A DNA stretch of 26,513 bases from a virus: the IMG/VR virus record IMGVR_UViG_3300042566_000207, positions 1 through 26,513 of that record. One strand, given 5' to 3'. The notes below the pieces were generated by a model. The model had not been told where the DNA came from, ran no database searches, and saw only the letters and a program-made list of their open reading frames with translations. How positions within the stretch are numbered: the stretch's first letter is position 1; every line of letters begins with the position of its first letter. Positions 7,692-21,860 of this stretch are shown here, piece by piece. The position numbers were made by a program, and so were the translations under genes.

Positions 7692-8347
7692 TATGCCTCT
7701 TCCAGTGTTAAAGACACATTCCAGAAATCAAAGTTTAAGCCACTTCTTTTTACTACTGAGTAATTAAAGTCTGAGAAAAAAACCTCTATAACCTCATTGT
7801 ATTTGTTTGTATTATTAAATCTATCATCTTTTTCAGTTTGAGGATCATTATTAAAATTAGTATATTTATCATAAGCAAGGTAAACCCAAAAAGATCCTTT
7901 ATGGTTTTTATACCAATCAAGAATTTCTACTCCTCCTGCTCCTCCATCTGTTGTAAATTCTAATGGGCTCTGTCTTGTTACTGTCTTTGCAAGATCTGGA
8001 TTACCATTGGAATCAAACCCAGCATGTGTATCGTATGCTCTTGATGGTAACATATCCCAGGAAACATTAATTTGTAGTTTATCTGCAATATGGTATGACC
8101 TCATACGGCCATTAATCATTCTTTCCCTTTTTTCAATTCTGGTGGTACTAAATTCTATTGGTGACCTATTATCATCAGAGAGTATTAAAAACTCCCCAGA
8201 TCCCTCTGCAGAGGCTGCTAATGACCCTATCTCGTTTCCTTCTGGGATATGAAATCCATCTACCTTGATTCCCTGGTTATCTGCAAAGAGCATTGCCTGT
8301 GGTCTTTGATATTTCTTACGACCTGCCATGTATAGATTGGTTGCCAT
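7691..8347 (-). CDS. Dit-like minor tail protein
   Basis: This 218-residue protein starts at a TAATG overlap with the tape measure stop, with AGAGGAG upstream. It follows the tape measure gene and precedes the large tail-tip gene, the usual place for a distal tail protein that caps the tube and docks the tip. N-terminal residues are basic (AGRKKYQRPQAMLFADN). Later parts alternate strands and loops: GSGEFLILSDDNRSPIEFST, HIADKLQINVSWDMLPSRAY, DWYKNHKGSFWVYLAYDKY, and a closing EVIEVFFSDFNYSVVKR with NFDFWNVSLTLEEA. The final strands are the kind that build a belt domain. The assignment is mainly positional. Confidence 0.6.
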   Translation of the reverse strand: MATNLYMAGRKKYQRPQAMLFADNQGIKVDGFHIPEGNEIGSLAASAEGSGEFLILSDDNRSPIEFSTTRIEKRERMINGRMRSYHIADKLQINVSWDMLPSRAYDTHAGFDSNGNPDLAKTVTRQSPLEFTTDGGAGGVEILDWYKNHKGSFWVYLAYDKYTNFNNDPQTEKDDRFNNTNKYNEVIEVFFSDFNYSVVKRSGLNFDFWNVSLTLEEA

Positions 8348-11300
8348 TATACTCTAACTCCTCTAATCTTTTGTGAATCAATGCTCTTTATTTGAGTCAT
8401 TACTGCTCTTGCAATTTCGTCTGGGTTTGAATCAGACTTTACATTTACATTGATACTATAATTATACACTGAGTCGCCCACCGATGAACCATTGTTTATT
8501 GCCTTCATTGTGTCTGCCCCGTGAGATTCAACAGCATACTTACTCATTACAAACTCTCCTGGGGTGAGCATTGCAGGCACTATATCTGTTCCCGTTGCTA
8601 GACCACCTGATGCAAATGCTTGCAAGTCTCGTGGTCCGTTAAAGAATGATCGCAGATTTGGATTAGAAAAAATTCCAGGCAGGACTGGATTTGAAATTGG
8701 TTGCGGTATCGTATCACTTAAACTTGATGGTATTGCATCAATTGTCTCTTTGATGCTGTTCGACATAGTATTTAATTTGTCTTGAAGTTCTTTTCCTCTA
8801 AACCCTGAAGTTTTTAATATATCTTTAATCTCTGATAAGCGTAATCCTTCTAAAACATTTTTACCCTTTATTAATCCATCAATATATGCTTCAGCGATTG
8901 AGTTTGCATTAGGATTTGTTTGAACAATATCGTTTAGTGGTTCAAACATTCTTGTTGTAACAGGAGTCATTAAAGGCATTTGCTCGTACCAGTCTAAACT
9001 TCTTGAAAAGTCTATCAGTCCAGGCTGCAATGTATTTGGGTTTATTGTTAGGTTTCCATCATGGGTGTCTACATATCTAAGAGCAGACATCATGCTTGAT
9101 CTATATCCACTTGAAGCAGCGGTTAATGGATCTGAAACTTTATCATATGCTACTGGTACTCCTGCTGAATCAATAGTCCTTAAATCTCTTAATAGTGAGC
9201 CTCCCTCATTTGCTACATCTGGACTAAATATTCCATCTGCTTTCCCTTTTCCTGTTGGAACAACTGGTATATTTTTAGGAGCAAGGAGTCCTGCCTTTTT
9301 AGCAAATAAAGAACCAAAAACTTCTCTTCTTACATCTTCATATCCAATATTAGTTTTGTAGTAACCTTTAACTCCATTTAGTGTTGCTCTAAAGGTTGGG
9401 TTTATACCAGTCTCACCTAGCCCAAGTTGTTCTCCCTTTACTAAAGCACTTTCACGGATTTGGTTTGGTAGTCTTTTTGTAATAAGATCTGTTCCAGTTT
9501 GAGCAATTGGTTTAATTGTTTCAGCAAGTTTGCTATTTGTATTTTTTATCACTGCTCCTAAAATAGAAGCATAGTATCCAGGAGTTTTTGCTTCAACAGT
9601 TACACTACCTGATCCTCTGATTGCTCTTGTATACGCAACCACATCCCCCCATAAAGGATGGCTTTCGTCATGGATACCATCATCCCAATTCTTGCCCCCT
9701 ACTTTAAACCATCGATCTTTTGCTGGGCCACCGAGTTCATAACCTGCATCTTCTAATTTTTTTGTTGCTGTTGCTATCGCTTTTTCTGCACCGACACTGC
9801 CTGTTGTGTCTTTAACCCAACCCATTTTTGATTTTCCAGTTTCAAGGCCAGAAAGAAAACTGTTTTTTATGTTATAAGATTCATCTGCTGGAGGCATAAA
9901 GAATCGTTTGATTGGAGCAACTACATCAGACATCTTTTCTTTAAATCTTTTAGTAATGTTTGATACAATATTTGAAGATTCTTTTGGTGCTAGGCTAGAG
10001 TTTAGACTTTCTTCTAACAAACTTGGATTTTTAGTTGCTAATGATTTAGCACCAGAACTAGCCTTGCTTAATCCACGAACTCCAAGACTAATTCCTGGCA
10101 ATACTCCAAGTACGTCTGCTGCAGTTCCAAGTTTTTTGCTTCCAAATATCTCTGGGCTTGTATTGTTTTTTAAATTAAATGCTGACGTATATCCACTAAT
10201 CATTTGACCAGTTTGCAAAGCCATGTAGTCTTTTTCTTGCTGAGTTATTTTAGATTTAATATTAGTGCTTGTACCTAAAGTCTTTGATGCACCAACATTA
10301 AACATACCGCTTAGCATTGAAGAGAATGCATTTACTGGGTTAAACCTACTAAACCAATTACCATTTTTGTTTCCAGCCATGCCACCTTCTGAAAGCATCT
10401 GTAGGCCAGTGATTCCATATGCTCCGTTACCAATACCGCCCATAGATGCGCCAGATCCTGCATAGCGGTCTACAGGTTTGTCTATACCCATTCCTGGACT
10501 GCTGTAATCTTTTGGTTGCTCTGCTAACTGATGGAAGTAATCTGAGAAATTTGCTACCTTGCCACTAAATGGAAGTCCTGGAATTTCAGTTCCGCCCCAT
10601 GGGTCTTTACCCGTAGTGTTAAATATTGGCTTTCCTTTGCCATCAAACCCGATTGGAGATCCTTCGTATAGTCTTTCTAACTCTCCCCAGTATCTTCCAG
10701 TTGGGCTTCCAGTAGGTTGGTTGTTAGAATCATAAGCAGAAGTTGGTTTAACTGGTACTGAAGAACCAAGGTTTCTGATTATGTCAAGCACTTCTGTTGG
10801 AGTTATTGCTGCAGTCTTTTTTGGATACTTTTTGTCATTAAGGTTTTTAAAGAATTTTGGTCCGTACTTCTTTACCGCAGACTTTTTAACTACAAATTCT
10901 CCAGGTGTAAGCATTGCAGGAACTGTGTCTGTTCCCTTTGGCTTAAACTCTGGGTCAGTACTTCCGCCCTTTCTATATACAACTCCGCCATCTGCCCAAT
11001 AGCCCATACTCTTTAGGATGGATGCTGCTGATTCTTTGCCCATTCCATGAACCCAGGGATTTAATGACCAACCTGTTTCAAAAGAACCCTTGTGAGATGG
11101 ATCATTTGGATCATACATGTCTGTGACAGGTGACATGCCAAGCAGTTCTCTTTCTTGTGCTGTTAATAATTGACCGCTATTTAATCTTCTTAGAGCATCT
11201 GCAATTGCCTTAGCCTTTACATCTGCTGCATCTTTAACTGCTTTATCTGCTGCAGATGTATCTGCATCTCCACTTATTGAAAGCAGGGCTTTTTCTTCTG

Positions 11301-14300
11301 CTGTTAAGGCTTGTCCAGATGTTAATTTTCTTAGTGCTGCAGCAATTGCCTTAGCCTTTGCTTCTGCTTGTGCAGTTGCTGCGGTTGCTGCTGCTGCAGC
11401 AGATGCTGCGCTACCATCATCAGTATATGTTTTTTTAATATTCTGTGTTATATTCTCAATCTTCTCAACTATTAATTTTGTATCAACACTGTCAGGAATT
11501 TTATTAATAGAATCTAAAATTTCACCCCAGGATGTACTTGCTGCTGCTACTGCTGCCTGTGCTGCAAGTGTTGAGGCAGCATAGGCTGCTGCTAACTCTT
11601 CAACTGATTTTACCTTGTCTTCTGTGTCTGCCCAATCCTCAAGGGTCATTCCAGTAGTGTTATCAATTGCTACTGCTTCTTCTGCAATTGCGGTCAAATA
11701 TCCTTCTTGTGCCTCTAAAGCATCGGCTTCATCTTCTAATTTTTTCAATATATCTTCATTTTTCTTTACTGCAGCATCAAGTGGCTCAAGAGATTTAGTT
11801 AAATCATCAAGGATTTTTTGCTGGGCTGCAGAGGCAAGTGCTACAACATTTGCTCTTCCAGCCTCAATGTTATCAATTTCTTCTTGTTTTGCAGCAATCA
11901 ATTCTTGTACTGCTAAAATGCTTTCATTGAGTGCTAGTATTTCTGCTTCAATTGCCAATCTTGCAGGGTCTGTTTCTAGTTTATAGATTTCTTGGCTTAT
12001 CGCAAACTGTCTTTCTGAAATAGCCTCTGAAGTTAGCCCACTTTCTGCACCAGTTAAGGCTGACAAATCATTAGTTCTGGCAAGTTCAACACCTTGCATT
12101 ATTGTATCTGCTTGATTGTTTGCATAAGATGCTGACATCTCATTTGCAACTCTTGCTGCTGCAGCGATATCACCTTGAGAAAGGGCATCTGCTAGATCCA
12201 ACTGTTGTCCTTGTGAGTCAATAATTTCTTGGTTTAACTTATTTACTTCCTGTAAGGCTTCTACTTGCTTGTCATACTTTTCATTAATATCTTCTGCAGC
12301 CTTATCCATTATTGCAAGGTCATTGCTTAGCATCTGGTTTTCTTTATTGAATGCTTCTATCTTGTCAGTAAATCTCTTTTTTATTTCATCTTCTCTTGAC
12401 TTTATCTTTTTTTCTATTGACTTGATCTGATTTTCATATCCCTTTATTGTATCCTGAACTGCCTTAATTGCTTTATCAACCCCTGCGTTAGCATTGTCTA
12501 TTGCTTTCTGCAAAGCATTGTCTGCATCTGAAATTTGATCTCTTACTGCAGATGCTGTTGCTTGAGCCTTGCTAAGGTTTGAAGACGAAAGACTTATTTC
12601 TTTGGCTTTAGTTTCCATTGCTTTTTGAAGACTCTTTATGGTTGCGCCTTTTGATATTACTGGTATTGGAGTGTTTGTTGCTTTATACCTTGCATCTACA
12701 GTTGCTGTTGCAATCTTACCAACTTGTTGTGGGGCTTTGCTTGAATCTCTATAGTTTGATACCGCCGAAGTAAGTTTATCAGCAGTTAGATTATTGTAAA
12801 CAGTTCTCTTTGAGTCCATTATCTTTCTTGCTGCTGCTGCGCCTTGCTCAATTTGGCCTGTAACATTTGCTGTTGCAAATTTAAAAATTAACTCTATATC
12901 TGAGTTTGCCTTTATAGCATTAAGTCCATCAACAATTCTTTTAAGTGTCTCTGCAGCAAGACCAGCAGAAGAGTTGTATTGGTCCATAGCAGCAATTGCT
13001 TCTGATAATGAACCTGCATCTGCAAGGGCTGCTCTAACACCATCTTCTGAAACACCTTGACTACGTAAGAATTTTGCAGCCTGTCCTGCTCTTGACAGAT
13101 CTACTTGCCTTTGCAATTCTGATGTACCTCTAGAAAGCAGGCTATTTATTTTTTGTCTATTAGCAAGTTCTTTAGAAATTTCAACATTTTGCTTGAGTTG
13201 TCCATCTGTTATTTTACCTGAAGCAATTAACTGTGTAGTGTATTCATCTGTTAGCAAGCCTTCTATTGTTACAGAATCATATCCAGCAGCAACTAATTTA
13301 ATTCTTGCCTTCTCTTGATCTTTTATTGATGAAAGAGATCTGCCCATTGCAGCATTGAAATCTCCAATTACTTTTGCATCAAAGAAATTATTAATAAGTT
13401 TACCTTGTCCAGAAAGTACTACGTCTCCTTGCTTGGCTGTCTTTGCTAATAATTTACCCTTGTTATATGGATCTTCTATTCTTCCTTTGTTCTTACCACT
13501 TTTAATTTTTGGCCCTGCGGTAGTGAAAAGTTTTGCCTGCTCATCAGGGGATAGGCCCATAGCGTAATCAATAAACTGTTTATTACGTCCTTGAGCAACC
13601 ATTTGTTGGTCTATTCCTAAGAATTTATCTCCTACAGACTTAGGACCAATTTTTGCAAGTGCCCTTCTTAATTCATCAATTCCACCCTTTGCATCAATTG
13701 CAGCGTTTCTAACATTCTTTAATGCTGCTAACATCCATTCAAATGGATCAGTTTTAGTCCCGCCGTCTTCTTCTTCTGCTGCAAGTCTTGCTGCTTCTAT
13801 TGCTGCGAGTTCATTCTTAACTCCTTGTGCAACTCCTCTTTTCATATATGATGCTTTTGCTGCTTCTGTTCCTTCTGGTGTGTTTAGATATTCAGAATAT
13901 TTTGCGGCACCTGATGGATTTCCTTTATATCCTGCCAGCATTCTTTTCTTTTCTGCGTTAATTTGGTCTGGAGTAAGTGTTTCTTTTAAAACAATAAATT
14001 GTGAAAGAACTACTTTGTGTATAAAGTCTGGTTGATTTTTGTATTCTTCCATAATCTCATTAAGACCATCTAGGCTTGTTCCACCAACTTCTTTTGTTTC
14101 TGTTATAAACTGTAATACAGGAATATCTATGTTTTTAACTATTTCAAGTTTGTCTGCAATTTTTTGAAGTTTTCCAATTCCTGCTGCGCCACCGTCTTTA
14201 AAAAAGAAATCTATATTTATTTCTGGATTTAATTCTTTCATAAGATTAAAGGCAGACATTATTTTTTCTGCTTCTTTTGAACCCTTTTGTGTGAATGCTA

Positions 14301-17300
14301 CAACAATTTCCTTTTTTATCTTAGGGTCTGTTACAGCATCAATAGCATTTAAAAACTCTGTTGTTTTTCCAGGATCTGATAGGCTTGTTGTAACATTAAG
14401 AACTTTGTTTAATCCTGCTTCATCTCCAACAAACATCTCCATCAACTTTACTGCATTTACTACTGGCATTTGACCAGAACCAACAATGGTCATAATCTTT
14501 GCCTCTATTTCTTGGCTACCTGCATCTTTTGCGCCTTGAAAAAATTTGTCAACAAATGCGGTTTGTGTTGGATCATCTTTGTACTTTTCCCTAACCTGAG
14601 TTTTTAATCCCTCAAAGAATGCAGTTTCAACATCTGCTCGTGCACCTTGTTTGTTCTGTGTCTTTACATACTTAAGCGCTTTCATCTGTTCTTTTACAAT
14701 GTTTGTATTGTTTGCTCGTAATTTCTTTGTTCCTTCTAATCTTTCTATTTCAACGTTTTTAATTTTCTTATCAATCTCTAACTGTTTTTCCTTGTCAGTT
14801 GTTGCTCTCTTTTGTGCTTCAAGTATTTTTATTTTGTTGTCGTATTCATTATTTAAAGAATCAATGTTTGCTTGATTAAATTCTAAGTCTTGTATATTTG
14901 CTGCTGCTGCCTGTGCTGCAAAAATTTTTGCGTTTGGGGCTGCAAGTGCGCGGCCACTTCCAGCCGTATCTGGAAGATCGCCATATTTTTTTAACTCGTC
15001 CATAACTAATTTAGTATTTTCTTGTTGTTCTTTAACTAGTTTAACTCTTACCTCTAGTGGATTTTTTAATAAATCTTCTCCGTTTGGACCAACCAACTCT
15101 AATAGTTTTCCAGTAATGTCTGCACCAATTGTAGTATTTCCTAATTCAATTCCAATTTGATCAGCAATGCTGTTTGCTTGTTGTGCGGTTAGTACTCCAT
15201 CAGCAATATAGCCAGCAAGTTCTAATCCTACTTTGGATGCAACATTTTTAGAACCAGATTTTAAATCTTCTATAATCCCAGCAAACATATCCTTTCCAAC
15301 TTGCTCTTTTAAAAACTCTGAACCATACTGGCTTTTTCCTCTTTCAAAACCAAAAGAGTATCTATCAGATACCGACTCTTTTCTTTTTCTTGCGTAAATT
15401 TCAGATGCTCCGACTTTACCATTCATTACTCCAATGGCTTTCATTTTTTCTGTTGTTGCTCTTGTTGCATCAACTTGTTTAGACTGAGACTCTGCTGCCT
15501 TCTTTGCTGCCCTGTCTAGCATCCAAAGTCCTCCACCAACTGCTGCGACAGCAGTCAAGGCTATTCCTACTGGTCCCATACCAGCAAGCATTGGAGCCAT
15601 ACCAGCAAGTGCTGACAAGCCTGATACAGCCATACCAGCGTTTGTATTTCCAGACATCATGAGTCCCATACCAACAGTTCCAAGAGCCATAGATGCACCA
15701 CCAGAGAATCGACCAACCCTTTCTTGACGTGCTACTCTTGTTTGTTTAACCTTTATTTTTTCAGTTTGTTTTTGACTCTTTAGTTCTCTTTTTTGCCCCT
15801 CTTTTACTGCAGCATCATATGTTCTTGCTTGTGCAGCATTTAGTTGTGCTCTACGTTCATTTTCTACAAATGCTTTTCTTGCAGCATCTGTTTGTTTTTT
15901 CTGTATTGCTGCCTGCTCTTGTTGCCTTGCTGCTTCTGCTCTTGCTGCTTTTTCTGCAGCACGGACTTGGGACTGTTTATTCTTTAATTCATTTTCTGCA
16001 AACTTTCTAAGTGCTCTATCAATTTCTACCTGGTTATATCCTTTGCTACGTAACTGTAATGCTAGTTGTCCTTGTTTTACTGTAGGGTTTTTTAGTCTTG
16101 GATCTCCCTTAATCATTCCAGGCATAGAGAATCCAGGAGTCTTTGCAAAAGATCTACGGAAATTTAAAAGTTGGGCTCTTGTTGCAACTGTTTGGTTTTG
16201 TGATACTGGAGTTGATCTGCTATCTCTTTGACTTCGGCTGCTTGGAACTGCTCCAGCAGGCTTTGGACTAGTATTAGCAACTGTTAATCTTTCTTCTTTA
16301 ACTTTACCAGTCTTTGGATTAACAGTTACCTTTGTTTCGTTACCAGGATTTACCAAAACATCGTCTGCCTGTTGTGCTGCCAAGTTCATAATTCTTGATG
16401 GCTGCAGGTTTGTATCTCTAAGTATAGCAAGCAGTGCTTTGGCATTTACCCCAGCATTTCTAGGAAGTTTTACTCCAGGCATCTTGCCACCATTTGCTTT
16501 ATGGTCTGCTGCTTTTGCCTCTAGTTCTGCTGCTCTTGCTACAAGCGCTCTTTGTTCTGGTGTTTCTGGATGTCTTCCAGTTGACATAAATTCTGCTGCA
16601 TTTTTATATTCAGACAAAAGTGCTGTATCTAGTCTAAGAGGGTTTGCTCCGCTTGTGTTATTCCAATTTAAAATATCTTTAAATCTTGAAGAACCTTCTC
16701 CGATATACCTGTTAAGCCCAAACGAATCATACTGTCCAGTTCCAGTTACCCACTTTAAAGGATCTCTTCCACCAATTCCAGTATTTCCAACTATATGAGA
16801 TAACTCTGGTTTTAATTTTTCAATAATTTTAGCATCGGAAAGTCCTAAAGCCCTCATCTCTATTGCTGCTTTAGTCTTTAATGGGTCTCCCATTTTTCTT
16901 AAATATTCATCCTTGAGGTTTGCTGCAACTGGTCTAACAATCTTTGAAAGACGACCAGTGCCACCACCTGCTCCCTTATTAGATGATCTTAGATCTGTTT
17001 TAAATGCTGGTAAACTGCCATACCTGCTTCCCTCAAATCCTCCCTTATCAACAAATATTCCATCTGCATTTGGAATAGCGCCCATTCTGTAAAGAAGGTT
17101 ATTTACAACCTGCTCTCTTGTTCTTGCATGTTTTGCTCTACCATTAGGGTCTGACATAAATGAATCCATGTCATCTGGATGAAGATACTTTACTACACCA
17201 TCAACCTTGATTGGAACCATACTCTGAATTTCATTCATAAACTTTGTTTGTTTTGCATCAAATCTTTTATCTCTTCCAGAAGGAGGTATAGGAACTACAC

Positions 17301-20300
17301 CACCATTCCAGGCTGTCTTTATTATCTTTGCTCTATCTGGATCTATAGAGTCAAGAGTCTTTACAAAGTCAGCATTTACTTTTCTTACAAGGTCTGCTTT
17401 TTTTAATTGACTATCTTCCTCAGAAGAGAGTGCATACTTTTTGAGTTGTTCTTTAATTACAGAGTCTGAAGCGCCTGAATCAATACCTTCTTCTGCTTTT
17501 ATAACACCGTTGCCAGCACGAGCATGAATTGGTTGGAATTCATCCCAATCTACTTTTGCTCCAGCCTTGAGTCTTCCAAGCATATCATTATATACAACCT
17601 GTTCATCTGGTTCTAAGTCCCAAGACTTAATAACTTTTTCAAGCCTAGGAATAGATTTATTTATTTCACCCTTAATTGCAGCATCATATTCTGCTGGTGA
17701 CATCTTTGACGCAATGCCAGAAGTTTCTTGTGCAAAGAATTTTTTTGCTCCACCCTTAACGCCAAGTAAATTAACTATTGCTTGTTCTTTCATGCTTGGC
17801 ATAGACTTAGAAAAATCTCTAAAGCCAGATGCCCTATCAAATACTCCAGCAGTTCCAACATCTGCTAACACCTTACCAGATAGGTTTGGCTGCTGTAAAT
17901 CTTTATCTCCTCTTAATGTTGAAGCGACTAACTGCTTAACCATATCAGACTTACTAAATTTTCCATCCATTGCTGCTATTCGTGGATCATAAGGTGATTC
18001 AATTACAATAAACTTTCTTTGACCTGTAGGATCTGTTGGATCAATCATTGTTCTAATGCTTTGCTTTGGTGCTACCAAACCATGAACTTCTCTTGCAATC
18101 TCAGTAGCACGAACCTCTGCTAATGCAGTCTTTTCATCTATTGTTGGTTTTACTACTACGATCTTTCCGTTAGGCTTTCTGTATACCCCGCCAACTCCTG
18201 AGACTGGAAAACTTCTTCCAGAAAATGGCTGAAGTAAAGTTCCAAAATTTGAAGGAGGAAGTGTTCCAAATCTTCCAAGTGCTACCTGCTGTGATATCTT
18301 TTCTACTATTTGTCTTGACTGAGATGTCTTATCAGAAGACTTTGGCATGCCAACAAATACTGGACCTACTGGTGCTTCTGGGTGTGGCTCATTGTATCCC
18401 TGACGTGCATCATCTCTTCTTCTATACTTTGCTTGCTGTGCTTTTCTAACTGCTGCTGGACCATCAGACAGTGGAATGCCTCTACCTGGTCCACCAGGAA
18501 GTCTTCCAGCCATAAATCCTGGAACCTTATCCTGGAACATTGCAGAAATTAAACCTCTATACTTATTAGTTGTTTCTGTAGGAATAACTGCTTCTCCTGG
18601 AGAAAGCATTGCTGGAACAACATCTCCTGCACCCTTTGGACCTGGTACGCTTAAAACTCCTTCTTTGTACTTTCTAACTGGTGGTAATCCGCTTACTGCT
18701 TTCTTGGACCCACGAACTCCGCCTGCAAACAATGCTGGGTTTTGTGTTGCCATAGTTCTCATCTGTGTGCTTAATGAATTGTATGATGCAGCAAGAGCAT
18801 TTACAGAAGTTTTTTCAACATTAAAAACTTGTATTAATCTTGAATGTGTTTGATGAAGTTGTTCAGAAGATGCAGCATTTTCAATCTGCTCTTGTGTCAT
18901 ATAGTTAAATCCTGCACCCATTACACCCGTTTGTCCATTTAACTTAGCAATTCCTCCACGAAGCATTGCAAACAATTTGATAACGTTTGCAACACCATTC
19001 ATCAGAAGACCAAATGTCATAAGTAGTACTGGACCAAGACCTGCAACGGCTGCAACAATTATTGCAATAACCTTTTTTGTATTATCTCCAAGACCGTTAA
19101 ACTTTTCAAGAAGTCCTGAGAAAAACTTAACTACTGGTGTTAAAGCCTCAAGGAATGCTTTTCCTAAAGGCATAATTTCTTGCTTAAGGTTTTCTAGTGC
19201 TGCTTGGAATTTAGCACCAGTTGAGTCTTCTATCTTCTTCATTTCTCTTTCAGATAAAATTGCTAACTCTTCTATTGATGCCCCTGCTAATTGAAATGCT
19301 CTTGATGCCTGAGATCCATCTTTAGTTACATTCTGAAATAATGTGGATAGACGTGCAAACTGGAACTTACCAAACATTTGCTCAATTGCTCTTGCACGAT
19401 TAAGTGGGTCGAGTTCGTCAAGGGCTCTTGCAAATCCAACAACAATTCCTTTTATGTCACCTTTGTTTGCTTCAACAAGGCCTCTTACGTTAATTCCTAA
19501 GTTGCCAAGAAACTTTGCTGCTTTATCAGATGGATTAATTAATGAGGCTAGTCCAGACTTAAGTGCGTTAGCACCTTCTGATGCATTAATTCCACCTTCC
19601 TTCATTGCTGTAAGGAAGAATGCTAAGTCTTCAACAGAACCACCAAGTTGCTTTATAACTGGTGCTGCTTTTGGAATTGCAATAGTTAAATCTTCAATAG
19701 ATAGAAGTGTTTGGTTTTCTACTGCGTTAAGAAAGTTAATTTTCTTTGCAAGGTCTTCACTAGAAAGACCAAATGCAGTTTGCAAAGATATTGTTGTTTC
19801 AAGTGCTTGCTGTTGCTCTATCTGGCCAAGTACTGCTAACTTTGTTGCTGTTTCAACCTGTGTTGTAAGTGCTGATCCTTCAAAGCCTGCTGCTGCTGCT
19901 GTCGCAGCCATCTCCATAGTCTTTGTAACAGAGACTCCATACTTCACATATTCATTTGATAATTTTCTTATATTTTCAACTGCTGCATTAACCTCTGCAT
20001 CATTTGTAAATGCATTTCCATATACACGACGGAACTTAACAACTTCAGCATCAAATTCTTTAAATGCTTTTGCAGCAGCGGATCCAAACAAGGCAAGTGG
20101 CATTGTAAGACCAACCATCAACTGACGGCCTGCCCACTGAGTATTCTTACCAAAGTTTAGGAGTTGTGTTGATCCTTGCTTTAATAGTTGATTAAGGAAC
20201 TGCTGTCTTTGTGCAGCATACTGAATTCTTGTTCCAAGTTCTGTAAACTTTCCACTAGCCATTTGAAGGCTTTTTGGCATAATTCTAATTGCATCCATAA

Positions 20301-20724
20301 ACCCAGCATTGGATTTGTTCATCTGGATATATTGTGCTTGTAAGGCTTTTACTCTATCTCTGCGAGCACGATTTATAATCTCTCTTTCTTCTGCAAATGC
20401 CTTGCCCATTACACGAGTATTGGCAGTTGCTGCTGCCATAGTGTATCTGTAATACTCACGAAGAGATAGTTTATTTTTTTCTAATGCAGATGTAAAGGCC
20501 AGTGTGCTGCCAGCAACTTTAACTTGACTTGCTGAGAATTTTCCTGTGGCACCAACAGATTGTATAAGTTGTGCGTTTAAACCTTTTTGAGCATTTGCAG
20601 CAGCCAGGTTGCCCTCAGCAAGTGTTTGATGAAACCTGCTGAGGCCTGCCTGTAAAGAACGAAGTTGTGCAAGAGCGGCAGTTGTATCAAAATTAATATT
20701 TATATTAGAGTTTACATCTGCCAA
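8347..20724 (-). CDS. Giant tape measure protein (4125 residues) with embedded kinase-like domains
   Basis: It sets tail length and is probably ejected with the DNA. The start is TTG (MADVNSNINI) with AGAGGTG nine bases upstream. Order along the protein: a PhageMin_Tail-like core about 200-545 (GLTMPLALFGSAAAKAFKEF; GINASEGANALKSG); a hydrophobic segment about 555-578; kinase-like domain about 830-1000; unassigned 1100-1500; a basic Ala/Gln-rich helix 1579-1670; a hydrophobic Gly/Ala/Met-rich stretch 1672-1733; long helical regions; strong coiled coil about 2705-3015; a 28-residue repeat pair at 3124-3198; an unassigned patch about 3630-3730; a second kinase-like domain about 3760-3965; and a short beta C-terminus (YNYSINVNVKSDSNPDEIAR). 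Three VPAMLTPGEFV-type motifs lie near 700, 3265 and 4050. The identity is secure from the core, the length and the neighbours. The kinase-like calls are inference. Confidence 0.92.
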   Translation of the reverse strand: MADVNSNININFDTTAALAQLRSLQAGLSRFHQTLAEGNLAAANAQKGLNAQLIQSVGATGKFSASQVKVAGSTLAFTSALEKNKLSLREYYRYTMAAATANTRVMGKAFAEEREIINRARRDRVKALQAQYIQMNKSNAGFMDAIRIMPKSLQMASGKFTELGTRIQYAAQRQQFLNQLLKQGSTQLLNFGKNTQWAGRQLMVGLTMPLALFGSAAAKAFKEFDAEVVKFRRVYGNAFTNDAEVNAAVENIRKLSNEYVKYGVSVTKTMEMAATAAAAGFEGSALTTQVETATKLAVLGQIEQQQALETTISLQTAFGLSSEDLAKKINFLNAVENQTLLSIEDLTIAIPKAAPVIKQLGGSVEDLAFFLTAMKEGGINASEGANALKSGLASLINPSDKAAKFLGNLGINVRGLVEANKGDIKGIVVGFARALDELDPLNRARAIEQMFGKFQFARLSTLFQNVTKDGSQASRAFQLAGASIEELAILSEREMKKIEDSTGAKFQAALENLKQEIMPLGKAFLEALTPVVKFFSGLLEKFNGLGDNTKKVIAIIVAAVAGLGPVLLMTFGLLMNGVANVIKLFAMLRGGIAKLNGQTGVMGAGFNYMTQEQIENAASSEQLHQTHSRLIQVFNVEKTSVNALAASYNSLSTQMRTMATQNPALFAGGVRGSKKAVSGLPPVRKYKEGVLSVPGPKGAGDVVPAMLSPGEAVIPTETTNKYRGLISAMFQDKVPGFMAGRLPGGPGRGIPLSDGPAAVRKAQQAKYRRRDDARQGYNEPHPEAPVGPVFVGMPKSSDKTSQSRQIVEKISQQVALGRFGTLPPSNFGTLLQPFSGRSFPVSGVGGVYRKPNGKIVVVKPTIDEKTALAEVRATEIAREVHGLVAPKQSIRTMIDPTDPTGQRKFIVIESPYDPRIAAMDGKFSKSDMVKQLVASTLRGDKDLQQPNLSGKVLADVGTAGVFDRASGFRDFSKSMPSMKEQAIVNLLGVKGGAKKFFAQETSGIASKMSPAEYDAAIKGEINKSIPRLEKVIKSWDLEPDEQVVYNDMLGRLKAGAKVDWDEFQPIHARAGNGVIKAEEGIDSGASDSVIKEQLKKYALSSEEDSQLKKADLVRKVNADFVKTLDSIDPDRAKIIKTAWNGGVVPIPPSGRDKRFDAKQTKFMNEIQSMVPIKVDGVVKYLHPDDMDSFMSDPNGRAKHARTREQVVNNLLYRMGAIPNADGIFVDKGGFEGSRYGSLPAFKTDLRSSNKGAGGGTGRLSKIVRPVAANLKDEYLRKMGDPLKTKAAIEMRALGLSDAKIIEKLKPELSHIVGNTGIGGRDPLKWVTGTGQYDSFGLNRYIGEGSSRFKDILNWNNTSGANPLRLDTALLSEYKNAAEFMSTGRHPETPEQRALVARAAELEAKAADHKANGGKMPGVKLPRNAGVNAKALLAILRDTNLQPSRIMNLAAQQADDVLVNPGNETKVTVNPKTGKVKEERLTVANTSPKPAGAVPSSRSQRDSRSTPVSQNQTVATRAQLLNFRRSFAKTPGFSMPGMIKGDPRLKNPTVKQGQLALQLRSKGYNQVEIDRALRKFAENELKNKQSQVRAAEKAARAEAARQQEQAAIQKKQTDAARKAFVENERRAQLNAAQARTYDAAVKEGQKRELKSQKQTEKIKVKQTRVARQERVGRFSGGASMALGTVGMGLMMSGNTNAGMAVSGLSALAGMAPMLAGMGPVGIALTAVAAVGGGLWMLDRAAKKAAESQSKQVDATRATTEKMKAIGVMNGKVGASEIYARKRKESVSDRYSFGFERGKSQYGSEFLKEQVGKDMFAGIIEDLKSGSKNVASKVGLELAGYIADGVLTAQQANSIADQIGIELGNTTIGADITGKLLELVGPNGEDLLKNPLEVRVKLVKEQQENTKLVMDELKKYGDLPDTAGSGRALAAPNAKIFAAQAAAANIQDLEFNQANIDSLNNEYDNKIKILEAQKRATTDKEKQLEIDKKIKNVEIERLEGTKKLRANNTNIVKEQMKALKYVKTQNKQGARADVETAFFEGLKTQVREKYKDDPTQTAFVDKFFQGAKDAGSQEIEAKIMTIVGSGQMPVVNAVKLMEMFVGDEAGLNKVLNVTTSLSDPGKTTEFLNAIDAVTDPKIKKEIVVAFTQKGSKEAEKIMSAFNLMKELNPEINIDFFFKDGGAAGIGKLQKIADKLEIVKNIDIPVLQFITETKEVGGTSLDGLNEIMEEYKNQPDFIHKVVLSQFIVLKETLTPDQINAEKKRMLAGYKGNPSGAAKYSEYLNTPEGTEAAKASYMKRGVAQGVKNELAAIEAARLAAEEEDGGTKTDPFEWMLAALKNVRNAAIDAKGGIDELRRALAKIGPKSVGDKFLGIDQQMVAQGRNKQFIDYAMGLSPDEQAKLFTTAGPKIKSGKNKGRIEDPYNKGKLLAKTAKQGDVVLSGQGKLINNFFDAKVIGDFNAAMGRSLSSIKDQEKARIKLVAAGYDSVTIEGLLTDEYTTQLIASGKITDGQLKQNVEISKELANRQKINSLLSRGTSELQRQVDLSRAGQAAKFLRSQGVSEDGVRAALADAGSLSEAIAAMDQYNSSAGLAAETLKRIVDGLNAIKANSDIELIFKFATANVTGQIEQGAAAARKIMDSKRTVYNNLTADKLTSAVSNYRDSSKAPQQVGKIATATVDARYKATNTPIPVISKGATIKSLQKAMETKAKEISLSSSNLSKAQATASAVRDQISDADNALQKAIDNANAGVDKAIKAVQDTIKGYENQIKSIEKKIKSREDEIKKRFTDKIEAFNKENQMLSNDLAIMDKAAEDINEKYDKQVEALQEVNKLNQEIIDSQGQQLDLADALSQGDIAAAARVANEMSASYANNQADTIMQGVELARTNDLSALTGAESGLTSEAISERQFAISQEIYKLETDPARLAIEAEILALNESILAVQELIAAKQEEIDNIEAGRANVVALASAAQQKILDDLTKSLEPLDAAVKKNEDILKKLEDEADALEAQEGYLTAIAEEAVAIDNTTGMTLEDWADTEDKVKSVEELAAAYAASTLAAQAAVAAASTSWGEILDSINKIPDSVDTKLIVEKIENITQNIKKTYTDDGSAASAAAAATAATAQAEAKAKAIAAALRKLTSGQALTAEEKALLSISGDADTSAADKAVKDAADVKAKAIADALRRLNSGQLLTAQERELLGMSPVTDMYDPNDPSHKGSFETGWSLNPWVHGMGKESAASILKSMGYWADGGVVYRKGGSTDPEFKPKGTDTVPAMLTPGEFVVKKSAVKKYGPKFFKNLNDKKYPKKTAAITPTEVLDIIRNLGSSVPVKPTSAYDSNNQPTGSPTGRYWGELERLYEGSPIGFDGKGKPIFNTTGKDPWGGTEIPGLPFSGKVANFSDYFHQLAEQPKDYSSPGMGIDKPVDRYAGSGASMGGIGNGAYGITGLQMLSEGGMAGNKNGNWFSRFNPVNAFSSMLSGMFNVGASKTLGTSTNIKSKITQQEKDYMALQTGQMISGYTSAFNLKNNTSPEIFGSKKLGTAADVLGVLPGISLGVRGLSKASSGAKSLATKNPSLLEESLNSSLAPKESSNIVSNITKRFKEKMSDVVAPIKRFFMPPADESYNIKNSFLSGLETGKSKMGWVKDTTGSVGAEKAIATATKKLEDAGYELGGPAKDRWFKVGGKNWDDGIHDESHPLWGDVVAYTRAIRGSGSVTVEAKTPGYYASILGAVIKNTNSKLAETIKPIAQTGTDLITKRLPNQIRESALVKGEQLGLGETGINPTFRATLNGVKGYYKTNIGYEDVRREVFGSLFAKKAGLLAPKNIPVVPTGKGKADGIFSPDVANEGGSLLRDLRTIDSAGVPVAYDKVSDPLTAASSGYRSSMMSALRYVDTHDGNLTINPNTLQPGLIDFSRSLDWYEQMPLMTPVTTRMFEPLNDIVQTNPNANSIAEAYIDGLIKGKNVLEGLRLSEIKDILKTSGFRGKELQDKLNTMSNSIKETIDAIPSSLSDTIPQPISNPVLPGIFSNPNLRSFFNGPRDLQAFASGGLATGTDIVPAMLTPGEFVMSKYAVESHGADTMKAINNGSSVGDSVYNYSINVNVKSDSNPDEIARAVMTQIKSIDSQKIRGVRV
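8830..9447 (-). other. Kinase-like domain 2 inside the tape measure protein
   Basis: Residues about 3760-3965. FRATLNGVKGYYKTN carries Lys3790. Glu3801 is again eleven residues later, in EVFGSLFAKKAGLLAPKN, which matches the corresponding block of domain 1. The catalytic-loop-like DTHDGNLTI (Asp3886, His3888, Asp3889, Asn3891) is followed by GLIDFSRSLDW with Asp3905 as the metal-binding candidate. This is the clearer of the two kinase-like signatures, and its HDGN...IDF order recalls HipA/PI3K and actin-fragmin type kinases. Confidence 0.6.
11131..11355 (-). repeat. Two 28-residue tandem repeats in the tape measure protein
   Basis: Residues 3124-3151 (AKAIAAALRKLTSGQALTAE and following EKALLSIS) and 3171-3198 (AKAIADALRRLNSGQLLTAQ and following ERELLGMS) repeat at a 47-residue period. 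Each is a short helix, a turn containing SGQ, and a second short helix. The DNA copies span 11272-11355 and 11131-11214. The function is not known; a helical or peptidoglycan-binding-like module is possible but unproven. Confidence 0.75.
17725..18237 (-). other. Kinase-like domain 1 inside the tape measure protein
   Basis: Residues about 830-1000. A Gly-rich start (SGVGGVYRKPNGKIVVVKP) gives a beta hairpin with Lys859, Glu870 lies eleven residues on, and GLVAPKQ follows. A strand VIESPYDP fits a hinge. The block GDKDLQQPN with Asp940, Asp942 and Asn947, followed by VLADVGTA with Asp955, looks like the D-N and D of a kinase catalytic loop and metal site. The pattern fits the HipA/PI3K-like kinase fold, but domain limits and activity are inference. 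Confidence 0.55.
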
Positions 20725-20752: not shown

Positions 20753-21079
20753 TTATTTAGTCAACGAAGTTAGCACTGCGCTTGCTTCGTTGTTTTGAAC
20801 ACCCGATGCTGCATCAATAATTTCGTAAACTGTAGGAAGATCTAGAAGTTCTTCTAGTGCTGCCCTATCTTCTGCCAACTCTGGCTTGAATTGTTTCATT
20901 GCAATCTGTGCACACTCAATAAGGATATCCATTGACTTGTCATTATCTTCAGATACAGAAGAAAGCAGTGCGAACTTAGACATAAATGGTCTAAGCAATG
21001 ATAACTTGAGTGGTCTTACTTCGATTTCTGTTCCGTCTATTAGTTTGACGGTTCTATTTTTTAAAGGCTTATCAGCCAT
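20753..21079 (-). CDS. Tail assembly chaperone, short form (paralogue of the upstream gene)
   Basis: This 108-residue protein has a strong AAGGAGG ribosome binding site 8 nt before its ATG. It aligns along its whole length with the N-terminal domain of the long chaperone: LIDGTEIEVRPLKLSLLRPF against LFDGTEIYITPLKIKYLKLF, then IAMKQFKPEL against ITMRQYYPSI, and LDLPTVYEIIDAASGV against IDMPTIYKLLDFSAGI. It lacks the T-like extension, so it corresponds to the gpG-like short form. The gene directly precedes the tape measure gene, the standard place for chaperones that hold it during tail assembly. No slippery sequence is needed to explain it. Confidence 0.82.
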   Translation of the reverse strand: MADKPLKNRTVKLIDGTEIEVRPLKLSLLRPFMSKFALLSSVSEDNDKSMDILIECAQIAMKQFKPELAEDRAALEELLDLPTVYEIIDAASGVQNNEASAVLTSLTK

Positions 21080-21107: not shown

Positions 21108-21116
21108 ATTATACCA
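21108..21116 (-). promoter_or_regulatory. Extended -10 motif (TGGTATAAT) overlapping the long chaperone stop
   Basis: TGGTATAAT on the minus strand overlaps the last codons and the TAA stop of the long chaperone gene. It lies 28 nt before the ATG of the short chaperone, leaving a short leader with the strong AAGGAGG ribosome binding site. A separate start here would allow extra short chaperone, as would be expected if the short form is needed in excess. Because TGGTATAA also encodes Val and stop, chance is possible. Confidence 0.45.
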
Positions 21117-21813
21117 CGCTGGATGGTGCAGATTCGTCTAATTTTTCATAGGTTAAACCCATACCAATTCCAAACCCTGCTTTTTGTGCATTGTATCCTT
21201 GAAGAGCAACAATATCTTTAGAGTCTGCTGCTTGACCACCACTAAATACCCTGGCTTTCATCTCTTCCCATGCATTGCCCTTGTTGCTTGCTTTGTCTAA
21301 ATCAACACCTTGCATTGCAGCAAGAAACTTTTTTTGAGAATAATCAAGATCTCTTTTTACTTTAAGCGTTGCCATTATTTCTGGCATTGACATAGATGAT
21401 TCTAGTTCATCGTAATCTTTCCATATCCCCAGCAAAAATACCTCTGACTCCAACTCTGCTAAATCTAGTTCATCCCACGAAGATCCGCTCTCTGTTGCTT
21501 GAGACTTTACTGGCTCTTCAGACTTTTCATTTATTTTTATACCTGCTGAAAAATCTAATAATTTATATATTGTTGGCATATCAATATTATCTTCTAATTG
21601 CTCTTGAGTCTTTATACTAGGATAATATTGTCTCATTGTGATTGTTGCACATTTAGCAAGATAGTACATGGCCTCATCATCATTTTTAGAGGTCTTTACA
21701 TTTTGAAATTCATCTAAGAATAACTTTAAGTATTTTATCTTTAATGGTGTAATATAAATTTCTGTGCCATCAAAGAGTTCAATGATTGAGGTTTTGTATA
21801 TTTCTGTAGGCAT
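21109..21813 (-). CDS. Tail assembly chaperone, long form with T-like extension
   Basis: This 234-residue protein starts at MPTEIYKTS. An ATG ten codons earlier lies inside the terminator stem and is rejected. Residues about 1-95 are a chaperone domain, with LFDGTEIYITPLKIKYLK, then MYYLAKCATITMRQYYP, and MPTIYKLLDFSAGIK. It is clearly paralogous to the next gene. A Ser/Glu-rich linker leads to a C-terminal extension: WDELDLAELESEVFLLGIWK, MSMPEIMATLKVKRDLDYSQ, KKFLAAMQGVDLD. This resembles the T part of gpGT-type products, which bind the tape measure protein and recruit tube subunits. In most siphoviruses the extension is reached by programmed frameshifting. Here it is read in one frame. Confidence 0.8.
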   Translation of the reverse strand: MPTEIYKTSIIELFDGTEIYITPLKIKYLKLFLDEFQNVKTSKNDDEAMYYLAKCATITMRQYYPSIKTQEQLEDNIDMPTIYKLLDFSAGIKINEKSEEPVKSQATESGSSWDELDLAELESEVFLLGIWKDYDELESSMSMPEIMATLKVKRDLDYSQKKFLAAMQGVDLDKASNKGNAWEEMKARVFSGGQAADSKDIVALQGYNAQKAGFGIGMGLTYEKLDESAPSSVV

Positions 21814-21819
21814 TATATA

Positions 21820-21828
21820 AGTATACCA
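21820..21828 (-). promoter_or_regulatory. Extended -10 motif (TGGTATACT) 6 nt before a start codon
   Basis: TGGTATACT on the minus strand is followed by TATATA and then the ATG of the long chaperone. A -10 element six bases before the ATG puts the expected transcription start at or next to the A of the ATG. No Shine-Dalgarno is visible, so the mRNA is predicted to be leaderless. The same spacing occurs at 1250-1258. Confidence 0.5.
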
Positions 21829-21860
21829 AACAGAAAGGCCCAACCCCGAAGGATTGAGCC
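21826..21860 (-). terminator. Terminator-like hairpin after the major tail protein gene
   Basis: On the minus strand GGCTCAATCC pairs with GGGTTGGGCC around a TTCG tetraloop. All ten positions pair, with two G:U wobbles, and TTTCTGTTT follows. The C-UUCG-G loop is an especially stable type. It lies 20 nt after the major tail stop codon and 13 nt before the start of the following chaperone, so it should lower read-through from the abundant tube transcript. Confidence 0.82.

Follow-up and report, generated by a model that had tools for sequence, protein, structure and literature searches.

The window, by which we mean the whole stretch of DNA analysed, is a virus record of 26.5 kb whose minus strand carries a gene for a tape measure protein (TMP). 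Its TTG start is preceded by AGAGGTG, and its product matches the PhageMin_Tail domain (2.7e-28) and PHROG tape measure families (down to 3e-99). As in Streptomyces phages, two paralogous chaperone-like ORFs lie upstream and a minor tail gene lies downstream, which places the gene after the tail chaperones and before the genes for distal parts of the tail. Two segments of the TMP, which we denote D1 and D2, contain residues arranged in the order found in kinases.

8347..20724, minus strand: TMP gene, 4125 amino acids, TTG start, carrier of D1 and D2
17485..18315, minus strand: D1, kinase-like domain, residues 804–1080 (65 distinct homologues; model pLDDT 72)
18148..18150, minus strand: K859, candidate ATP-binding Lys of D1 (65/65)
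18115..18117, minus strand: E870, candidate Lys partner of D1 (65/65)
17899..17901, minus strand: D942, candidate catalytic Asp of D1, five residues before N947 (65/65)
17884..17886, minus strand: N947 of D1 (65/65)
17860..17862, minus strand: D955, candidate metal-binding Asp of D1 (65/65)
8782..9408, minus strand: D2, predicted kinase-fold domain, residues 3773–3981 (model pLDDT 82; CtkA top match; 16 homologues)
9355..9357, minus strand: K3790 of D2 (16/16)
9322..9324, minus strand: E3801 of D2 (16/16)
9052..9069, minus strand: DTHDGN, predicted catalytic loop of D2, D3886 to N3891 (D, H, G and N invariant, 16/16)
9010..9012, minus strand: D3905, candidate metal-binding Asp of D2, in LIDF (16/16)

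The N terminus of the TMP is nearest to those of annotated Streptomyces phage TMPs (about 28–31% identity), and the late gene order of those phages is similar (major tail protein with an Ig domain, chaperone(s), TMP and minor tail proteins). WhiB, an actinobacterial protein family, is encoded by 7 of the 10 long relatives tested; among 14 control genomes it was found in Corynebacterium only. On the basis of WhiB, the TMP similarity and the late gene order, we consider the window virus and its D1- and D2-bearing relatives most likely to be actinophages. To judge by the kind of sample series, they may be of freshwater origin.

Kinase-like features of D1 and D2

The first-pass annotation of this DNA had read both segments as kinase-like domains that recall HipA/PI3K-like kinases. 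The residues on which it relied (K859, E870, N947 and D955 in one segment; K3790, E3801, N3891 and D3905 in the other) are exactly where it placed them, and GLVAPK or GLLAPK follows each Lys/Glu pair. In each domain all four named residues fall in invariant alignment columns, a coincidence to which simple counting gives a probability below about 1e-4. It did not name the candidate catalytic aspartates D942 and D3886. Searches of D1 and D2 against Pfam, NCBIfam, PADLOC and PDB sequences matched no kinase model or chain. No relatives were returned by tblastn of D1, D2 and the D2 of the related contig L151 against 50,697 phage records, or by pattern-based scans for both domains in 84,980 bacterial and archaeal species genomes.

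A first scan of viral contigs with D2 gave no relatives, and these were then sought with a DNA pattern for D-x-H-x-G-N-x13-I-D-F, which has a single match in the window and none in 100 shuffles. It matched 64 viral stretches, including one set that is close to D2 along its full length and another that is further removed. Because the pattern also picks up ordinary phage kinases, and iteration over pattern-selected hits inflates E-values, a match was counted as a relative only if it scored above 100 bits and covered the domain together with the K/E region, which the pattern leaves free. Together with one further scan, this yielded 16 D2-bearing contigs, the window's included, and an alignment of 16 sequences with 24–47% identity to the window's D2. 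Invariant positions (28 of 271 columns) include K3790, R3800, E3801, D3886, H3888, G3890, N3891, I3904, D3905 and F3906, and thus all four D2 residues named in the first pass. D3886, five residues N-terminal of N3891 (D-x4-N), is the candidate catalytic Asp. All D2-containing ORFs long enough to judge match the N terminus or the C terminus of a TMP.

The AlphaFold model of D2 (pLDDT 82, pTM 0.78) places K3790 on a strand and E3801 on the next helix; the D-x4-N loop follows a long helix, D3905 follows a short hairpin, and C-terminal helices are present. A Foldseek search of the PDB returned Helicobacter pylori CtkA, a HipA-like protein, as the first match (E 3.7e-5, probability 1.00, TM 0.51), and the best 50 matches listed are all kinases, PI3K gamma among them. 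In BFVD, the model matched phage PI3/PI4-kinase domain proteins (TM up to 0.57); one portal-annotated protein also matched. The position of the DFG Gly is a Ser in the window's D2, and the domain matches no curated kinase family model in Pfam or NCBIfam. The modelled fold and the conserved residues indicate that D2 very probably adopts a kinase fold and is likely to be catalytic. For D2 the original assignment holds up in its fold match, its conserved residues and its HipA/PI3K-type neighbours: the domain would work like a HipA/PI3K-like kinase, yet it falls outside any named family.

The search with D1 matched 77 viral contigs, and the most distant of the 65 distinct sequences is about 40% identical to that of the window. 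Invariant columns number 24 of 281, the four D1 residues of the first pass among them, and D940 is replaced by Asn in 3 of the 65 sequences. Many further residues are conserved among close relatives. The segment D942-L-Q-Q-P-N947 reads as D-x4-N, and the spacing from N947 to D955 is eight, short for a kinase. In the model, K859 lies on a strand and E870 on a helix, and two further strands and another helix lead to the D-x4-N segment; the N-lobe of the model is kinase-like, and its pLDDT (72 overall) falls below 50 over residues 944–974, the catalytic-loop region. The best 50 Foldseek matches listed for D1 are all kinases or kinase-like folds (p38, JNK, ERK2, SidJ and CylM), with marginal scores (E 0.0037 or worse, TM about 0.2); since the PDB is rich in kinases, we take this as moderate evidence. 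For D1, the kinase assignment is thus borne out in the identity and order of its invariant residues and is weaker in its fold: with a poor catalytic-loop model and a short N-to-D spacing, D1 only probably adopts a kinase fold. Free variation of the Lys, Asn and Asp among homologues, which would have spoken against kinases, is seen in neither domain (invariant in 65 of 65 D1 and 16 of 16 D2 sequences).

The variable region around D2

The first-pass annotation treated D1 and D2 as two of a kind, a view that comparison with relatives does not sustain. The idea that they are recent duplicates is rejected: BLASTP gave E 0.16, hhalign of a shallower D1 profile with D2 found no similarity, and the likeness is distant and confined to the N-lobe, where a deep-profile alignment pairs K with K and E with E and scores 29.5 (200 column shuffles gave at most 27.8). 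The position of D1 shifts among TMPs, from residue 804 in the window to about 992–1401 in others and 2834 in the relative L153, in which D1 sits between two copies of D2; some D2-bearing TMPs lack D1. D2 lies in a segment of variable content, which we denote the slot, in a region flanked by repeats of a short motif.

18586..18618, minus strand: VPAMLSPGEAV motif, residues 703–713, upstream of D1
10891..10923, minus strand: VPAMLTPGEFV motif, residues 3268–3278, N-terminal flank of the slot region
8635..10011, minus strand: putative exchangeable cassette with D2, about residues 3572–4030 (other domains or nothing in relatives)
8548..8580, minus strand: VPAMLTPGEFV motif, residues 4049–4059, C-terminal flank of the slot region

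The TMP of the relative L019 is 93.6% identical to that of the window over 172 residues up to about residue 3572 and 88% identical from residue 4025; between these flanks it has a domain that differs from the window's D2. We surveyed 52 distinct TMPs with a matching C terminus. The slot is absent from 33 of them; in the others it holds a GPG[LT]Y domain (nine), D2 (six), a YRGLS domain (two) or something else (two). In the relative L013, the slot has a clear OmpA domain (1.1e-12); its match to a metallopeptidase is weak (0.042). A by-eye idea that the GPGLYSxT and YRGLS cassettes are ADP-ribosyltransferases gained no support from profile searches of Pfam, NCBIfam and the PDB. The variation at the slot looks like cassette exchange, perhaps through recombination at the VPAMLTPGEFV repeats; the two repeats in the window share 78% DNA identity over 63 bases, and one motif is kept in most slot-less TMPs. 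Because slot content varies between near-identical flanks, and because 33 of the 52 TMPs have no slot, D2 seems to be an accessory that is dispensable for building the tail. These sequence comparisons indicate that D1 is a separate module, almost constant in this family of phage TMPs, and D2 cargo in an exchangeable slot.

Four cultured Streptomyces phages of the Stanwilliamsviridae (Tomas, Muntaha, Beuffert and MeganTheeKilla) resemble the window virus in late gene order and have a homologous TMP N terminus, but their TMPs comprise about 2090 amino acids and lack D1, D2 and the VPAMLTPGEFV motif, which rules out that TMPs generally carry kinase domains.

A possible role at infection

We favour a reading, to which we assign a probability of about 0.6, in which the TMP contains virion-borne atypical kinases, with D2 as cargo, that are delivered at infection and modify host targets. 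D2, HipA/PI3K-like and resembling CtkA, would be held in the exchangeable slot close to the TMP C terminus, which would be located at the tip of the tail and should be the first part to exit. The core of the baseplate houses the TMP C terminus in the siphophage JBD30, for which it has been proposed that this end exits before the remainder of the protein, which forms a channel (PMC11445458). D1, as a second, divergent kinase-like domain and a near-constant part of the TMP family, would, like D2, reach the envelope or cytoplasm as part of the TMP, and host targets would be modified there in an ATP-dependent manner, phosphorylation being the simplest case. The invariance of the catalytic positions in 16 D2 and 65 D1 sequences is more in keeping with active enzymes than with folds in decay, and the optional occurrence of D2 near the C terminus fits a delivered effector. 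The near constancy of D1 agrees with a function common to these phages, be it delivery, takeover or assembly. A tail tube is narrow for a kinase domain in its folded state, so delivery would require unfolding or placement at the tip. Points against this reading are the lack of a profile match to kinases, the weak D1 model, the short D1 spacing and the Ser in the DFG of D2. We lean slightly towards a role exerted mainly through delivery into the host, and the original suggestion that a kinase in the TMP could modify host targets at infection is plausible.

The domains could instead be active kinase-fold enzymes whose work is done in the cell that makes the virions, rather than in the next host, where they would modify tail proteins or chaperones during assembly, or alter the surface of the producing cell so as to exclude other phages. 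This would suit TMPs as late structural proteins and the near constancy of D1, as expected for an assembly function, and a late HipA-family kinase has been proposed for superinfection exclusion in the Gratiaviridae (PMC8008677). Most relatives, however, lack D2 and still have full TMPs, and the Streptomyces relatives lack both domains; we judge this explanation unlikely. Inactive kinase folds, whether pseudokinase scaffolds for a partner or a nucleotide, or plugs or spacers within the tail, would account for the Ser at the DFG Gly of the window's D2 and for the short, poorly modelled catalytic segment of D1. Pseudokinases, however, usually lose some catalytic residues, and the invariance of K, E, D, N and D across all 65 D1 and 16 D2 sequences makes this quite improbable.

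The chemistry might also differ, as in SelO or SidJ, where kinase folds carry out AMPylation or glutamylation. SidJ and the lanthipeptide synthetase CylM are indeed among the marginal fold matches of D1, but D2 is closer to canonical and HipA-like kinases, and we give such an alternative little credence. A rather doubtful explanation, which concerns D1 alone, is that it is an unrelated, non-kinase TMP domain with its conserved K, E, D, N and D in another role. The fruitless profile searches, the low confidence of the model in the catalytic region and the conservation of many other residues among close relatives would agree with this, whereas the kinase order of the invariant residues, the uniformly kinase-like fold matches listed and an N-lobe profile match to D2 that exceeds 200 shuffles argue for a kinase fold.

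Virion-borne kinases in a TMP would combine features of several known systems. The enzymes known from TMPs mostly serve to open the cell wall. In mycobacteriophage TM4, a peptidoglycan hydrolase motif of the TMP is dispensable for viability and helps infection; the TM4 domain is, as here, an enzyme within a TMP, but it is a cell-wall hydrolase rather than a kinase fold, and the available part of that report does not describe an exchange slot (PMC1796659). Injected ADP-ribosyltransferases and kinase-bearing polyvalent proteins are already known (PMC5512222), and the polyvalent proteins of phages and conjugative elements, like T4 Alt, bring virion-borne or co-injected host-modifying domains, kinases included. 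Polyvalent kinases are reported to have no C-terminal subdomain, in contrast to the D2 model with its C-terminal helices, and TMPs are not mentioned in that paper (PMC5512222). Exchangeable enzyme domains in a multidomain virion-borne protein would mark the polyvalent type; of this, the sequences of the window TMP and its relatives show the variability of the slot. Gratiaviridae gut phages likewise encode a HipA-like kinase among late structural genes, but as a protein of its own between the portal and capsid genes and not within the TMP (PMC8008677). With CtkA and other HipA-like and PI3K-like kinases, D2 shares the predicted fold, the Lys/Glu pair, the D-x-H-x-x-N loop and the ID(F) Asp; in contrast to these, D1 and D2 are embedded in a TMP and lack a sequence-profile match, and the N-to-D spacing of D1 is shorter. 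Searches of open full texts yielded no earlier case of a TMP with a kinase domain or HipA. New here are the carrier and the arrangement; the kinase fold and the idea of virion-borne effectors are already known.

More tentatively, and with slightly less than even confidence, the TMP of this actinophage clade may be a general delivery vehicle, comprising a near-constant kinase-like module and, close to the tip, a recombination slot between VPAMLTPGEFV repeats for different host-entering effectors, which would include CtkA-like kinases, a cassette with an OmpA-like domain and a possible metalloprotease, and several further domains. The idea of delivery is directly testable, as single domains can be expressed and assayed. 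The presence of two kinase-like domains in a TMP suggests that the ruler of a phage tail may bring enzymes along into the cell under infection; if this is true, it would double as an effector carrier that can act before any phage gene is expressed.

Domains occupying the slot

In ten related viral contigs (L008, L011, L013, L018, L019, L022, L024, L029, L033 and L034) the slot, an exchangeable cassette region near the C terminus of the tape measure protein (TMP), is filled by a conserved domain. Its motifs are GPG[LT]Y[SG][SA]T and TNW, and Pfam, NCBIfam and PDB profile searches returned no family for it. The L013 cassette combines a GPGTY segment with an OmpA domain, matched at 1.1e-12, and a zinc-protease-like AHEILH motif, whose Reprolysin_3 match is weak (0.042). 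A second slot domain, marked by a YRGLS motif, is 35% identical between contigs L045 and L059, and no family was assigned to it. Several slot domains are preceded by a short stretch that is hydrophobic and rich in Pro and Gly, such as ALFPLNF.G.GK; it may be a pre-cargo segment common to them.

L013:10693-13251, slot cassette with OmpA domain, AHEILH motif and GPGTY segment
L045:15830-16582 and L059:18599-19351, YRGLS slot domain
Window TMP residues 3535-3560, and corresponding places in L008, L013, L014 and L022, hydrophobic Pro/Gly-rich stretch

TMP layout in other relatives

The 4,557-residue TMP of L153 (the same contig as L114) carries three kinase-like domains in the order D2-D1-D2, named after the domains of the window protein that lie nearer its C terminus (D2) and nearer its N terminus (D1). 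The TMP frame is interrupted or short in the contig sequences of L012, L031 and L072, which may reflect assembly error or a real split; close relatives such as L013 have an intact frame.

Paired chaperone-like genes

Two adjacent chaperone-like open reading frames lie directly upstream of the TMP gene.

20753-21079, minus strand, chaperone-like
21109-21843, minus strand, chaperone-like

The two are paralogous (35.8% identity over 95 amino acids, 9e-22). They might represent short and long chaperone forms encoded as separate genes, in place of the programmed frameshift usual for tail assembly chaperones.
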